DNA of 64,000 bases from Mesonia aquimarina (GTDB taxonomy: Bacteria > Bacteroidota > Bacteroidia > Flavobacteriales > Flavobacteriaceae), in assembly GCF_003667275.1 (NCBI RefSeq), contig NZ_RCNV01000002.1:248001-312000 (forward strand), given 5' to 3'. Of this stretch, positions 28,524 through 33,611 are shown piece by piece (the stretch's first letter is position 1; each line of letters starts with the position of its first letter). Below the pieces are notes generated by a model, which saw only the letters and a program-made list of their open reading frames with translations, did not search any database and was not told the DNA's origin. The translations under genes and the position numbers were made by a program.

Positions 28524-30722
28524 ATGGCAAAAGGAAAAAAGAAGAAAAAAGGACAAAAAAAAATTGAAAACCTTTCAAAAAAAATACTTTCAATATTAAG
28601 AAAACAGCCTACTGAAGCGCTGAACTATAAACAGATTGCGTCTAAACTTCAAGTAGATGATGCAAATAGCCGAAACCAAATTATTAGAAAATTAGCTCAT
28701 TTGGCCGGTAAAAAACAAATTTTAGAAACCGATCGCGGAAAATTTCAGATTAATGCCAGACGCGATTATCACGAAGGCTACTTAGACATCACTTCAAAAA
28801 AAGATGGTTATGTAATAGTAGATGGTTTAGATGATGATATTTTTATACCTCATAAAAATTTAAATAAAGCTTTTGATGGCGATTTTGTACAAGTTTATGT
28901 GTATAAACGCAGAAGGCGCAATAATGAAGGTGAAATTACCAAAGTTATAGAACGTAAAAAAACCACTTTTGTGGGAGTTTTACAGATGCAAAAAAACTTC
29001 GGTTTTGTAGAAGTGAAAAGCGGAAAAATGTATACCGACATTTTTGTGCCGAAAAACAAAACCATGAAAGCCGAAGATAACACGGTGGTTTTGGTTGAAG
29101 TAGAAGATTGGCCAGATGATGCAGATTCACCTTTTGGAAAAGTAATTGAAATTTTAGGAAAACCCGGCGAGCATGAAACCGTAATGCAATCAATTTTGGT
29201 AGAAAACGGTTTGCCGCATGATTTTCCGAAAGAAGTAGAAGAATTTGCAGATCAAATCGATACATCAATTCAAGAAGGCGAAATTAAAAAGCGTCGCGAT
29301 ATGCGCGAAACGCTTACGTTTACAATAGACCCTAAAGACGCTAAAGATTTTGATGACGCCTTGAGCTTTAAAATTTTAGAGAACGGAAATTATGAAGTTG
29401 GTATTCACATTGCCGATATTTCGCATTATTTACAACCCGGTACCATTCTCGATGAAGAAGCTTACGAACGCGCAACTTCAATTTATTTGGTAGATCGCGT
29501 AGTACCGATGTTACCTGAAGTTTTATCAAATAATGCTTGTTCTTTACGCCCGCACGAAGAAAAATACACTTTTTCTGCTGTGTTTGAAATCAATAAAAAA
29601 GCAGAAGTTGTTAACCAATGGTTTGGAAGAACAGTAACTTACAGTGATGCTCGATTTGCTTATGAAGAAGCGCAACACATTATAGAAACTAAAACTGGTG
29701 ATATACCGAGTGATATTTCTATAACCGATAAAATGTATAGTACTTCTCCAGCAATTGTAGAAGCGGTATTAACTTTAGACAGTCTGGCAAAAAAAATGCG
29801 TGCAAAACGCATGAGTAGCGGTGCTATTTCTTTTGATAAAGTGGAAGTGAAATTCAATTTAAATGAAGAAAATGAACCGGTTGGCGTATATTTTAAAACT
29901 TCTAAAGATGCCAATAAACTTATTGAAGAATTTATGCTGCTTGCCAATAAAAAGGTATCAGAATTTATTGGAAAAAAACAGCCTAAAAAAACCTTTGTTT
30001 ACCGTTGTCACGATGAACCAAATGATGAAAAATTAGCTTCGCTTCAAAACATCGTTTCACAATTTGGACATTCGCTAAATTTAAAAGATAAAAAAGGTAT
30101 TAACACCTCTTTAAATCGATTGTTGAAAGATGTACAAGGGCAGAAAGAGCAAAATTTAGTGGATACGTTAACCATTAGAACCATGAGCAAAGCTTATTAC
30201 AGCACAAATAATATTGGGCATTACGGCTTGGCATTTGACTATTATTCGCATTTTACATCGCCTATTCGTCGTTATCCCGATGTTATGGTACATCGTTTAC
30301 TACAAACTTATTTAGACGGACAAGAATCTGCTAGTCAAGAAGAGTACGAAGATAAAAGTGCGCATTGCAGTGATATGGAAAATTTTGCAACTAGTGCCGA
30401 ACGTGATTCTATAAAATACATGCAGGTAAAATTTATGAAAGATCACGAAAACGAACAGTTTTTAGGAATTATTTCTGGTGTTACCGAATGGGGAATTTAT
30501 ATAGAAATTGAGCAAAATAAATGTGAAGGAATGGTGCGCTTACGTGATATTAAAGAAGACCATTTTGATTTTGATCAAGAACAATATGCTATTGTGGGTA
30601 GAAATACGCTAAAAACCTATCAATTAGGAGATGAAGTGTATGTAACCGTTAAGAAAGCAGATTTGGAAAAACGCCATCTAGATTTTAATTTAATCGGCAG
30701 TAAAACTGAAGTCGAAATGTAA
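28524..30722 (+). CDS. rnr: Ribonuclease R
   Basis: This 732-residue 3'-5' exoribonuclease has a very basic N-terminus (MAKGKKKKKGQKK) and a winged-helix segment (about 18-70). Two cold-shock-like OB domains follow (about 75-215). The RNB catalytic domain starts near 255 with TIDPKDAKDFDDALSF (about 267-282), whose aspartates bind Mg2+. A C-terminal S1 domain (about 640-720, GIISGVTEWGIYIEI) completes it. It degrades structured RNA and rRNA fragments. The last residues read LIGSKTEVEM; a diverged copy of this end occurs again at 32115-32147, beyond the next gene. Confidence 0.96.
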   Translation: MAKGKKKKKGQKKIENLSKKILSILRKQPTEALNYKQIASKLQVDDANSRNQIIRKLAHLAGKKQILETDRGKFQINARRDYHEGYLDITSKKDGYVIVDGLDDDIFIPHKNLNKAFDGDFVQVYVYKRRRRNNEGEITKVIERKKTTFVGVLQMQKNFGFVEVKSGKMYTDIFVPKNKTMKAEDNTVVLVEVEDWPDDADSPFGKVIEILGKPGEHETVMQSILVENGLPHDFPKEVEEFADQIDTSIQEGEIKKRRDMRETLTFTIDPKDAKDFDDALSFKILENGNYEVGIHIADISHYLQPGTILDEEAYERATSIYLVDRVVPMLPEVLSNNACSLRPHEEKYTFSAVFEINKKAEVVNQWFGRTVTYSDARFAYEEAQHIIETKTGDIPSDISITDKMYSTSPAIVEAVLTLDSLAKKMRAKRMSSGAISFDKVEVKFNLNEENEPVGVYFKTSKDANKLIEEFMLLANKKVSEFIGKKQPKKTFVYRCHDEPNDEKLASLQNIVSQFGHSLNLKDKKGINTSLNRLLKDVQGQKEQNLVDTLTIRTMSKAYYSTNNIGHYGLAFDYYSHFTSPIRRYPDVMVHRLLQTYLDGQESASQEEYEDKSAHCSDMENFATSAERDSIKYMQVKFMKDHENEQFLGIISGVTEWGIYIEIEQNKCEGMVRLRDIKEDHFDFDQEQYAIVGRNTLKTYQLGDEVYVTVKKADLEKRHLDFNLIGSKTEVEM

Positions 30723-30726
30723 TATT
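30694..30726 (+). repeat. Direct repeat copy 1 (native rnr 3' end)
   Basis: These 33 nt cover the last rnr codons, the stop and TATT. They match 32119-32151 at 30 of 33 positions; the three differences are agt/tct (both Ser) and atg/ttg in the last codon. Confidence 0.85.
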
Positions 30727-30731
30727 ATAAA

Positions 30732-30757
30732 AAAAGCTGGATAAGAATCCAGCTTTT
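30732..30757. terminator. Terminator between rnr and the Kelch/T9SS gene
   Basis: The 11-bp stem AAAAGCTGGAT/ATCCAGCTTTT with an AAGA loop can act on both convergent genes. It lies just inside the segment bounded by the rnr-end repeats, so it may have arrived with the insertion. Confidence 0.75.
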
Positions 30758-30779
30758 GTAATTAAAATAAATTTTTAAA

Positions 30780-31988
30780 TTACTCTTTTACAAACTTTAT
30801 AGTTGATGTTTGTTTGTCATCAGTAATTTCTAAAATATAAACACCAGAATTAATTGAACTGATGTCAATATTTTCAGTGTAATTTATTTCTTTTATTAAC
30901 CTCCCATCTAAGCTATAAATATTAATTGTTGGATTTTTTAATTGCTCTTTTGTGCTTAAGGTGATGCTATTTTTTGCTGGGTTAGGATACAATGTAATTG
31001 CATTCTTTTCAAAAGAATTATTATTCAATAGATTATTTAAATCTGTTGTCCACATGCCGGTTTGAAAAGTTTGTCCAATAAAATCTACTCCACCAAAAAA
31101 GTAAAGCGTATCATTAATAATAAAAGAACCCGGTGCCCAAATACTATTTCCAGGGTGTGGATTTAATACGGTCCATGAATCTGTAGCTGGGTCATACATC
31201 CAAAAAATAGAAGGATTAGTTGCATCGTGATTTTCTGCATCGCCGCTTAAAACAAAGCCTTTTCCGTTATGGGAGAATTGAGTTCCCGCAATTCTAGCTC
31301 CAGGTGCGGTAGCCATTTGATCCCAAGAATTATCAGAAGGATCAAAACGATACCAATCATCTCTAGCCATTTGCGGACTTCCATCGTGTCCTAAGCCGGT
31401 ATAACTATAATTACCGATAGAGAAGTGGTACGGATGGTGTCTAGCTGTTCCTGGAAAGTCTATTAACTGTGTCCAAGTATCGGTTGCAATGTCATACTCC
31501 CACCAGTCATCTAAATTTCCTGAAGCATTATTACCTTTACCTACATATATTTTTCCGTATTGATCATTAATGGTAAAAGTTGGGTGCTTTCTTCCTGTAC
31601 AAGGGCAGGAACTTAATTCTTCCCATGTTTCTGTAGTAGGATTATATTTCCATAAGTCATTTAAATCATTAGAAGTTCCTGCTCCAAAACCTAAATAAGC
31701 TTCGCCATTATAAACACCACCTATAGAAAAACTACGCGCCGGACCAGGAAAATCTGATAATGTTTCCCAAGAATCTGTAGTAGGATCGTATTTATTAAAA
31801 TCTTTGGTAGGATTGTTATTTACATTAGTTCCTGTTGCAGCATAGCCGTAGCCGTTTAATGCCCAAGTAACAGGATGATGCCTTGTGTTATTTCCTAATC
31901 CCGTTTTACTTTGCCAAGTTTGAGCAAATACAAAAGTTGTAAAGCTTAAAAAGATTAGCGTAAAAAAATTAGTAGTATTATTTTTCAT
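30780..31988 (-). CDS. Kelch-repeat protein with type A T9SS sorting domain
   Basis: Started at the ATG giving MKNNTTNFFTLIFLSFTTFVFAQ, the protein has 402 residues and a Sec signal peptide. A longer frame to 32174 only adds AT-rich, implausible sequence. Five or six Kelch-like blades follow, each with a YDPxTDxW-type edge (KYDPTTDSWETL, KYNPTTETWEEL, EYDIATDTWTQL, RFDPSDNSWDQM, MYDPATDSWTVL). The last 70 residues are a Por secretion-system C-terminal domain: LYPNPAKNSITL, INIYSLDGRLIKE and a terminal TIKFVKE. It should be exported across the outer membrane by the type IX system. It sits between two copies of the rnr end. Confidence 0.9.
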   Translation of the reverse strand: MKNNTTNFFTLIFLSFTTFVFAQTWQSKTGLGNNTRHHPVTWALNGYGYAATGTNVNNNPTKDFNKYDPTTDSWETLSDFPGPARSFSIGGVYNGEAYLGFGAGTSNDLNDLWKYNPTTETWEELSSCPCTGRKHPTFTINDQYGKIYVGKGNNASGNLDDWWEYDIATDTWTQLIDFPGTARHHPYHFSIGNYSYTGLGHDGSPQMARDDWYRFDPSDNSWDQMATAPGARIAGTQFSHNGKGFVLSGDAENHDATNPSIFWMYDPATDSWTVLNPHPGNSIWAPGSFIINDTLYFFGGVDFIGQTFQTGMWTTDLNNLLNNNSFEKNAITLYPNPAKNSITLSTKEQLKNPTINIYSLDGRLIKEINYTENIDISSINSGVYILEITDDKQTSTIKFVKE

Positions 31989-32118
31989 ATAAATTGAGTA
32001 TTGATTTTTAGAAATATAATGAAAATAATTTATATTTTTTAATAGTAGTTTTCTTTCCTGTTTTTTCTGTAGTTGAAAAAACTTTTTTAATTTGTAATTA
32101 GAAATAAATTTTATTTGG

Positions 32119-32151
32119 TCGGCTCTAAAACTGAAGTCGAATTGTAATATT
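32119..32151 (+). repeat. Direct repeat copy 2 (remnant of a second rnr 3' end)
   Basis: In frame from 32115 it reads LVGSKTEVEL then TAA, matching the rnr C-terminus LIGSKTEVEM with conservative codon changes. No longer rnr sequence precedes it. It ends 4 nt before the DUF2807 start. Confidence 0.85.
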
Positions 32152-32155
32152 TTGT

Positions 32156-32833
32156 ATGATGAAAAAAACAGCATTTATACTTTTTGGATTAATGACAGCT
32201 AATGTACAAGCGCAAGAAATTGAAATTCCGATTACAGAATCTTTCAACGAAATAAAAATTTACAATAAAATTGAAGCGCGTTTAATTCCTTCAACAGAAA
32301 ATAAAGTAATTGCTAAAGGAGTAGATAAGGAAGAAATTGAAGCAAAAGTTAAAAACAATACGCTTAAAATTAAATCAGACTTAGATAATATCTGGAGTGA
32401 AGACGATACCATTGTTGAAATATATTATACTTCTGCAGAAATTATTGATGCTAACGAAGGTTCTAATGTTACTAGTAATCAAAAAATTGTACAAGAAAAT
32501 CTAACGCTTTCTGCACAGGAAGGAAGCAGAATTGCTTTAGAGCTGGAAGTAGAAAACTTAGAATCAAAAATTTATACCGGCGGTACCATAAAAGTTTGGG
32601 GCAAGGCATCTGCACAGGAAGCTTCTATTAAAGCCGGTGGAGAATATAATGCAGATGAATTATTAACCGAAGATACTAACGTTAAAATTAGTGCGGGGGG
32701 AAATGCTGCTGTTCACGCTAGCAATTCCTGCAAGGCAAAAGTTAGTGCTGGAGGTACAATTACCATTTATGGAAATCCTTCTTCTATTAAAAAAAAGACT
32801 AGCTTAGGCGGGAAAATTATTGAAAAGAAATAG
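32156..32833 (+). CDS. DUF2807-type (GIN-domain) secreted protein
   Basis: This 225-residue protein has a signal peptide (AFILFGLMTANVQAQ) and a putative auto-transporter adhesin head GIN domain. The start is ITESFNEIKIYNKIEARLIPST, and the rest is a right-handed beta-solenoid-like series of short repeats (EGSNVTSNQKI, EGSRIALELEV, GGTIKVWGKA, GGEYNADELLT, GGNAAVHASNSCKAKVSAGG). The start is one of two adjacent ATGs. Its promoter region was probably displaced: the remnant of an rnr end directly upstream implies it once followed rnr within 4-10 nt. The role in the envelope is unknown. Confidence 0.8.
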   Translation: MMKKTAFILFGLMTANVQAQEIEIPITESFNEIKIYNKIEARLIPSTENKVIAKGVDKEEIEAKVKNNTLKIKSDLDNIWSEDDTIVEIYYTSAEIIDANEGSNVTSNQKIVQENLTLSAQEGSRIALELEVENLESKIYTGGTIKVWGKASAQEASIKAGGEYNADELLTEDTNVKISAGGNAAVHASNSCKAKVSAGGTITIYGNPSSIKKKTSLGGKIIEKK

Positions 32834-32918: not shown

Positions 32919-33611
32919 ATGATTCAAGATATTTTTGCAGCAGTACCTTTAGGAATTTTTTTAGCGTTTTTATTAGGTCCTGTTTTTTTTGTATTGCTAG
33001 AAACTGCTGCTATAAAAGGATTTAGAGCAGCTGTTTTTTTTGATATTGGCGTCATTTTATCTGACGTTGTTTTTTTACTGATCGCTTATTTTAGTACTAG
33101 CAAACTTTTAAATAGCATTAAAGACGATCCCGGATTATTTATTTTTGGTGGTTGTATTTTAGCTACTTACGGTATTGTAACTTTTGTTAAAGAAAAAAAA
33201 GCCATTCCACATCCCGATGATGCAGAACTTAGAAAACTTAAAAAAAGTGATTTTATAGGATTAGTAGTTAAAGGTTTTCTACTAAATTTTGTCAACATTG
33301 GTGTATTAGGTTTTTGGCTGGGATTAATCATTGTTTTTGGTCCTACAATGGATATGAATCCAGAACGTTTACTAGTGTTTTTTACGGCAGTAATTGTAAC
33401 CTATTTTATTATAGATATTTTAAAAATTTTACTGGCAAAAAAATTGAATCATAAATTAACTCCTATAAGAATTTATCGCTTAAAAAAGGGCATTAGTATT
33501 TTAATTGTATTTTTTGGTGTTATCCTTATTAGTAGAGGTTTATTTCCTTCAGAAATGGATAGTTTAGAAAATAAAGTTGAAGAAATTATGCCGGGTGAAG
33601 AAGAGGTATAA
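32919..33611 (+). CDS. LysE-family translocator
   Basis: This 230-residue membrane protein starts IFAAVPLGIFLAFLLGPVFFVLLETAAIKGFRAAVFFDIGVILSDVVFLLIAYF, the LysE/RhtB N-terminus with its conserved G-P-x-FF segment (about residues 20-26). It has six predicted helices, and a hydrophilic loop near 90-112. By family it exports amino acids or related small solutes; the substrate is unknown. It has its own -7 box and a strong terminator, so it is monocistronic. An acidic tail (EEIMPGEEEV) is a species-level feature. Confidence 0.88.
   Translation: MIQDIFAAVPLGIFLAFLLGPVFFVLLETAAIKGFRAAVFFDIGVILSDVVFLLIAYFSTSKLLNSIKDDPGLFIFGGCILATYGIVTFVKEKKAIPHPDDAELRKLKKSDFIGLVVKGFLLNFVNIGVLGFWLGLIIVFGPTMDMNPERLLVFFTAVIVTYFIIDILKILLAKKLNHKLTPIRIYRLKKGISILIVFFGVILISRGLFPSEMDSLENKVEEIMPGEEEV

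Follow-up and report, generated by a model that had tools for sequence, protein, structure and literature searches.

A repeated rnr 3′ end around a Kelch-repeat gene in Mesonia aquimarina, probably a recombination scar

Genomic islands at gene 3′ ends carry a direct repeat of the gene end at both ends of the insert, while the gene itself stays intact. A comparable layout is found in Mesonia aquimarina (assembly GCF_003667275.1; genome of 3.28 Mb), within a stretch of 64,000 nucleotides (contig NZ_RCNV01000002.1, positions 248,001 to 312,000), hereafter the window. Here the 3′ end of rnr, the gene for ribonuclease R, recurs just before a DUF2807 gene, and the two copies flank a gene for a Kelch-repeat protein with a type 9 secretion system (T9SS) sorting domain. 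We propose, with a probability of about 0.58, that the second copy is a relic of an ancestral rnr–DUF2807 junction and that the locus is a recombination scar, left by recombination between closely related chromosomes with and without Kelch. As in genomic islands, a direct repeat of the rnr 3′ end flanks the insert and rnr is intact. Unlike in such islands, the repeat is imperfect, no integrase is encoded in the 1.4 kb and no such repeats surround other inserts at the site. The locus does not qualify as a site-specific element, since no recombinase lies between the copies (the Kelch gene is the only large gene there) and tail repeats are lacking in nine other rnr–DUF2807 gaps of the genus.

Homology-facilitated illegitimate recombination (HFIR) of incoming DNA has been reported in transformable bacteria; its products usually lost recipient DNA of about the size of the insert and had 3–10 bp of microhomology at the join (PMC3240628). 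With homology at one end and an illegitimate join at the other, the expected product is a new gene following a conserved gene that stays intact, with a piece of the resident sequence left over. The locus fits HFIR in that one side can have crossed over by homology, whereas the join of the rnr tail to the sequence upstream of Kelch shows none. It differs from the products described there in that it seems to have lost little or nothing: no loss of DNA is evident if the recipient had the bare junction, and a loss would be invisible if the recipient had Kelch and more DNA before DUF2807, as does the Mesonia genome labelled G014. Displaced 3′ ends and orphan genes are also described at type VI secretion system (T6SS) clusters and rhs loci of Vibrio cholerae, with HFIR proposed as the mechanism (PMC5361080). 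There, the former 3′ end is displaced downstream by a module that comes in after a conserved stretch, and it persists as a remnant, much as at the present locus; the V. cholerae loci are arrays of effector and immunity genes, whereas here a housekeeping gene is followed by a functionless 47-nt tail. Read in this way, the locus is a neat instance of an event type already known, a recombination scar that is ordinary in kind but can be read unusually well. On a small scale it illustrates how a gene can come to stand between two housekeeping genes when no mobile element is apparent, while the former border can still be recognised.

The features of the locus are listed below. Comparisons within the genus used 16 genomes, our own included, the other 15 being labelled G001–G015.

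28524..30722, plus strand: rnr (ribonuclease R), 732 aa, intact (open reading frame (ORF) listing; TIGR02063 match above cut-off)
30679..30726, plus strand: copy 1, the functional rnr 3′ end with its stop and 4 nt (repeat search, gapped alignment)
30732..30757, no strand given: terminator-like hairpin in the interval between rnr and the Kelch gene (terminator scoring, RNA folding)
30780..31988, minus strand: Kelch-repeat protein with T9SS type A sorting domain, 402 aa (domain searches; ortholog in 2 of 16 genus genomes including our own)
31989..32104, no strand given: Kelch upstream region, 116 nt, with the presumed illegitimate join at or near its right end (G014 homology stops near 32027)
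32105..32151, plus strand: copy 2 (47 nt), the putative relic of the rnr 3′ end, which differs from copy 1 by six substitutions and a deletion of 1 nt
32156..32833, plus strand: DUF2807 gene, 225 aa, whose start the relic stop precedes by 8 nt (PF10988; groups with G005 and G010)
32919..33611, plus strand: LysE-type transporter gene (lysE), conserved right neighbour used as a flank marker (PF01810; groups with G005 and G010)

The repeated rnr tail and its pattern of change

The repeat is real. The initial annotation had reported 30 of 33 identical bases between 30694–30726 and 32119–32151; this was confirmed as the core of a longer match that stands above the controls. Without gaps it covers 43 nt (30684–30726 and 32109–32151; 37 of 43 bases identical, 86%), and with one 1-nt gap it runs from 30679 to 30726 and from 32105 to 32151 (41 of 48 columns identical). 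The gapped alignment scored 58, against a maximum of 31 in 60 block shuffles. The tails of 50 mechanically called ORFs (≥120 aa) from the window were each matched against as much as 6 kb of sequence to the left and to the right, giving 99 comparisons; that of rnr ranked first, and the next scored 39. Related loci were taken as the best 80 of 581 confirmed stretches from a scan with the C-terminal part of rnr, five of the 80 being Mesonia genomes also present among the 16; there, rnr tails compared with up to 6 kb downstream gave a top score of 31. A 31-nt core motif (≤3 mismatches) occurred twice in our own genome, both times at this locus, and had no occurrence in the 15 other genus genomes. 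None of nine other genus gaps tested held an rnr-tail copy above the shuffle maximum, the closest being that of G014 (2 of 60 shuffles as good). Homology to rnr did not extend further upstream of the relic (476 of 1000 shuffles as good), and a second short repeat at the insert borders (30755–30777 and 32091–32113) was dismissed as AT-rich chance, 52 of 2000 shuffles scoring as high. The shuffles in the alignment, border-repeat and upstream tests were two-base block shuffles, not strict dinucleotide shuffles.

Copy 2 is best read, from its pattern of differences, as this lineage's own rnr tail in decay. Two working rnr ends are expected to differ mainly at third codon positions. The six differences between copies 1 and 2 fall on codon positions 1, 2 and 3 as 4:1:1. 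As a control, overlapping 14-codon windows were compared between pairs of 15 genus rnr genes, with the truncated G012 gene unused and only the longer piece of the G009 gene included. Of 18,961 such windows with 5–8 differences, 36 had at most one at position 3, as had 3 of the 4,336 with exactly six; the corresponding counts for the last 60 codons of the alignment were 2 of 1,065 and 0 of 240. The rnr tail comprises 13 codons with the stop against 14 in the control, and these counts are not independent, the windows being overlapping and the pairs related. The chance of at most one third-position change in six is 0.0016 at a third-position share of 0.8 and 0.35 at equal shares. Together with the 1-nt deletion in the gapped alignment, the 4:1:1 pattern matches decay without coding constraint, albeit on only six substitutions. 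In G005 and G010, the sister pair, five of the six sites carry copy 1's base and none carries copy 2's, and copy 2 aligns to its own rnr tail with a score of 50, whereas the best of 15 other tails (G003) scored 31.

These results run counter to the argument of the initial annotation that the copies had diverged as real rnr ends in different genomes, which is contradicted as far as six changes allow: neither the codon positions, nor the absence of copy 2's bases in the two nearest species, nor the alignment scores favour it. Two points are in its favour: a serine in copy 2 is retained through a two-base change, and the TTG-GT letters of copy 2 are also present in G003; the distribution over codon positions, however, is unlike that of selected rnr. 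Kept protein sense in a short relic is thus weak evidence for separate coding histories, and here codon positions and relatives pointed the other way. Four-fold sites of rnr in the window are only 40% and 37% identical to those of G005 and G010. If copy 2 is a neutral relic, then at 86% identity to copy 1 it should have arisen long after those splits, barring conversion or selection that preserved it.

The old junction, the Kelch neighbourhood and the flanks

The bare rnr–DUF2807 junction is probably old, judging from its distribution. DUF2807 lies 6–10 nt behind the rnr stop in 4 of the 16 genus genomes (G007, G001, G006 and G012), while the gap measures ~170–215 nt in G002, G003 and G015, ~1.1–1.8 kb in G004, G005, G010, G011 and G013, and ~4.6 kb in G014. 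No DUF2807 match was found in the 12 kb fetched from G008, and in G009 the two genes lie at the ends of different contigs, so that the gap is unreadable. At the 80 related loci, with DUF2807 start codons chosen by script, the gap was ≤20 nt or an overlap in 10, 21–60 nt in 11, 61–250 nt in 26, 251–1000 nt in 14 and >1000 nt in 6; DUF2807 was not found downstream of rnr in the other 13. The ten closest pairs came from Salinimicrobium, Gillisia, Salegentibacter, Zunongwangia and Aequorivita. Copy 2 ends at 32151, 4 nt short of the DUF2807 start, and because its stop is 8 nt before that start, it sits where the old junction would be, at a spacing matching that of the uninterrupted junction in relatives. 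The earlier suggestion that DUF2807 once followed rnr within ~10 nt thus held up when the junction was compared among related flavobacteria: the bare pair exists within the genus and in other genera, the 8 nt fit, and the relatives do not all carry Kelch. Here and in roughly half of the genus genomes sampled, DUF2807 has lost its position immediately after rnr, a change that bears on what drives its expression there.

At 1e-20, a Kelch ortholog was found in 2 of the 16 genus genomes, those of the window and G014, with 75% amino acid identity. The G014 gene lies behind rnr on the same side and in the same orientation as in the window. Given this equivalent placement, rnr and Kelch have probably long been neighbours, and the join to copy 2 would be the one recent feature. 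A single blastn alignment links the two genomes from the end of rnr across Kelch and into the sequence upstream of it, with 1064 of its 1434 columns identical (74%), and the homology upstream of Kelch stops near 32027; beyond Kelch, G014 has ~3.3 kb with two more large ORFs where the window has the relic. Nucleotide identity to G014 was 75.3% for Kelch, 74.7% for rnr and 74.4% for lysE, and four-fold sites were identical at 44%, 39% and 40%, respectively. Because Kelch has diverged as much as rnr and lysE, the rnr–Kelch junction on the left is probably one old event, either inherited with losses elsewhere or passed on with its rnr flank.

The hairpin at 30732–30757 has a terminator score on the minus strand only, that is, downstream of Kelch. 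The plus-strand RNA of the region folds far more stably than shuffles (z −4.91), and the hairpin might act for rnr as well. G014 has a hairpin at the equivalent place with a different stem. The incoming unit envisaged in the initial annotation, an rnr end with Kelch and a terminator, therefore has a counterpart in G014, where rnr end, hairpin and reversed Kelch all exist; a foreign rnr end from a G014-like donor was rejected at this resolution, there being no such tract at the rnr 3′ end.

Trees of rnr, lysE and DUF2807 each placed the window with G005 and G010 (83/96, 89/89 and 100/99, respectively); an rpiB tree, with good support for 1 of 10 inner branches, was too poorly resolved for use. 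Over the last 60 nt of rnr, identity to the window was 80% for G005 and G010, 78% for G003 and 67% for G014 (this comparison along rnr again omitted the truncated G012 gene, used the longer G009 piece only and also left out one outgroup). The rnr 3′ end is thus closest to G005, G010 and G003, roughly as is the whole gene. No tract break was seen in rnr and the flank trees agree; a same-species donor would leave no break visible with these genomes. Because the flank trees agree and identity at the rnr 3′ end does not shift towards G014, the exchange partner was probably close kin, either of the same species or a near sister.

Origin of the scar and competing explanations

In the scenario that we favour, two arrangements would have coexisted among close kin, an older rnr–hairpin–Kelch order, as in G014, and the ancestral rnr–DUF2807 pair, and a fairly recent exchange would have brought both into one chromosome. 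One side would have been joined by ordinary homology; this crossover would lie in rnr if the Kelch arrangement was the incoming one, and in DUF2807 or farther on if the bare junction was. The other side would be an illegitimate join of the Kelch upstream region to a point ~45 nt before the rnr stop. The product would be rnr–Kelch followed by a useless rnr tail before DUF2807, and this unselected tail would then have decayed. We infer the exchange, its two kinds of crossover and its recency from comparison of sequences. Several points weigh against this scenario. Six changes are few, and at three of the six sites copy 2's base occurs in 3, 4 and 8 of 15 relatives, so that the polarity is good, not clean. 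The 57-nt spacer between rnr and Kelch matches G014 weakly, and an alignment of the gap alone starts at the Kelch 3′ end. The four bases that the copies share past the stop (TATT) are not needed by an exchange. An older relic could also appear young if copy 1 had converted it ectopically, and both the recency and the two parents, as we infer them, rest on one strain of the species.

The shared TATT would follow directly if a Kelch cassette had been freshly inserted into an intact rnr–DUF2807 junction, duplicating ~48 nt of the rnr end by target duplication or by integration of a circle through short homology. Such an event would also explain why copy 2 resembles the own tail and looks as if it alone had changed. 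We nevertheless consider it unlikely: the matching placement and orientation of the G014 Kelch gene relative to rnr would be a coincidence unless the cassette were site-specific, the nine other genus gaps tested have no standout rnr-tail copy and the 1.4 kb insert encodes no integrase or transposase. Somewhat more doubtful still is the version in the initial annotation, in which DNA from another species, with its own diverged rnr end and Kelch, replaced the junction, making copy 1 the donor's and copy 2 the recipient's, both coding-selected. The serine kept through two bases, the mild Ile/Val and Met/Leu changes, the letters shared with G003 and the presence of the rnr–Kelch neighbourhood in G014 would suit it. 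Against it stand the 4:1:1 codon pattern, which few control windows with six differences match (3 of 4,336), the affinity of copy 2 to its own tail (50 versus ≤31 for others) and an rnr 3′ end that is nearest to G005, G010 and G003, without a turn towards G014.

Two further explanations concern copy 2 itself. Selection could have maintained it as a DUF2807 leader, providing for instance a translation start context or coupling inherited from the old pair. It lies 4–50 nt ahead of the DUF2807 start, its conservation is highest over the final 31 nt (28 of 31), and in relatives DUF2807 starts right behind or overlaps rnr. We regard a leader as highly improbable, given that relatives with inserts have other sequences before DUF2807, that the core motif is present in only 1 of the 16 genus genomes, and that no match to the Bacteroidota promoter pattern (at 19-nt spacing only, with ≤1 mismatch) was found between rnr and DUF2807. 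Over 19 kb, matches to that pattern were at chance level (16 found, 17.09 expected), as were those in a scan for sigma-70-like consensus promoters (8 found, 7.2 expected). Finally, the similarity could be due to chance, or to a secondary rnr-tail copy dropped before DUF2807 and unrelated to the old junction; the region is AT-rich, the repeat is short and another border repeat is chance-like (52 of 2000 shuffles). With a score of 58 versus 39 and 31 in the controls, and a spacing to DUF2807 that equals that of the ancestral pair, this is scarcely credible, and the relic of an rnr–DUF2807 junction remains our preferred reading of copy 2.

The variable interval behind rnr

Across Mesonia, the interval behind rnr looks like a variable site. 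Between rnr and DUF2807, G005 and G010 have a beta-lactamase-fold hydrolase; G011, G013 and G004 have small ORFs without Pfam match; G014 has Kelch with ORFs of 680 and 195 aa; and G002, G003 and G015 have ~200 nt without an ORF of 50 aa. It is a tentative and rather doubtful extension of our scenario that the rnr 3′ border serves as a recurrent exchange point in the genus, at which small cassettes (the Kelch protein, the beta-lactamase-fold hydrolase, and small secreted or membrane proteins) would be swapped via conserved flanks, with relic tails dating and orienting the swaps.

Kelch itself is sparsely distributed. Matches at ≤1e-30 were found in 8 of 395 Bacteroidota genomes, our own included, the best outside the genus having 42% identity; at 1e-60, the own genome was the only one of 299 family genomes, with two other genus members visible among the matches listed. 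Among plasmids there were 15 records, every one below 60% identity, and among viral contigs one locus at 32%. Kelch was rejected as a compositional stranger, nothing being odd in its G+C content of 35.0% and third-position G+C content (GC3) of 23.1% (34.3 and 25.4 for rnr), and it was assigned neither to N-acetylneuraminate epimerase nor to cyclically permuted mutarotase, both matches being far below the NCBIfam cut-offs. The mechanical ORF of the gene (30780–32174) extends through the relic into the DUF2807 gene. The ATG was placed at 31988 because of a signal-peptide-like start and the G014 ortholog; automatic annotation could give a false long start, and 31988 fits better.

Other observations concern the same interval elsewhere in the genus. 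A palindromic-looking repeat starting with GGGCGTT lies directly or close behind the rnr stop in G011, G013, G015, G003 and G009; a loose pattern for it had no match in the window. The rnr of G009 (contig 43, 42088–44278) matches in two frames, indicating a frameshift or an assembly error. The 680-aa ORF of G014 and a 153-aa ORF of G004, neither with a Pfam match, share by eye an MRYD..TD.PI.W.PV.G stretch and may be pieces of one family.

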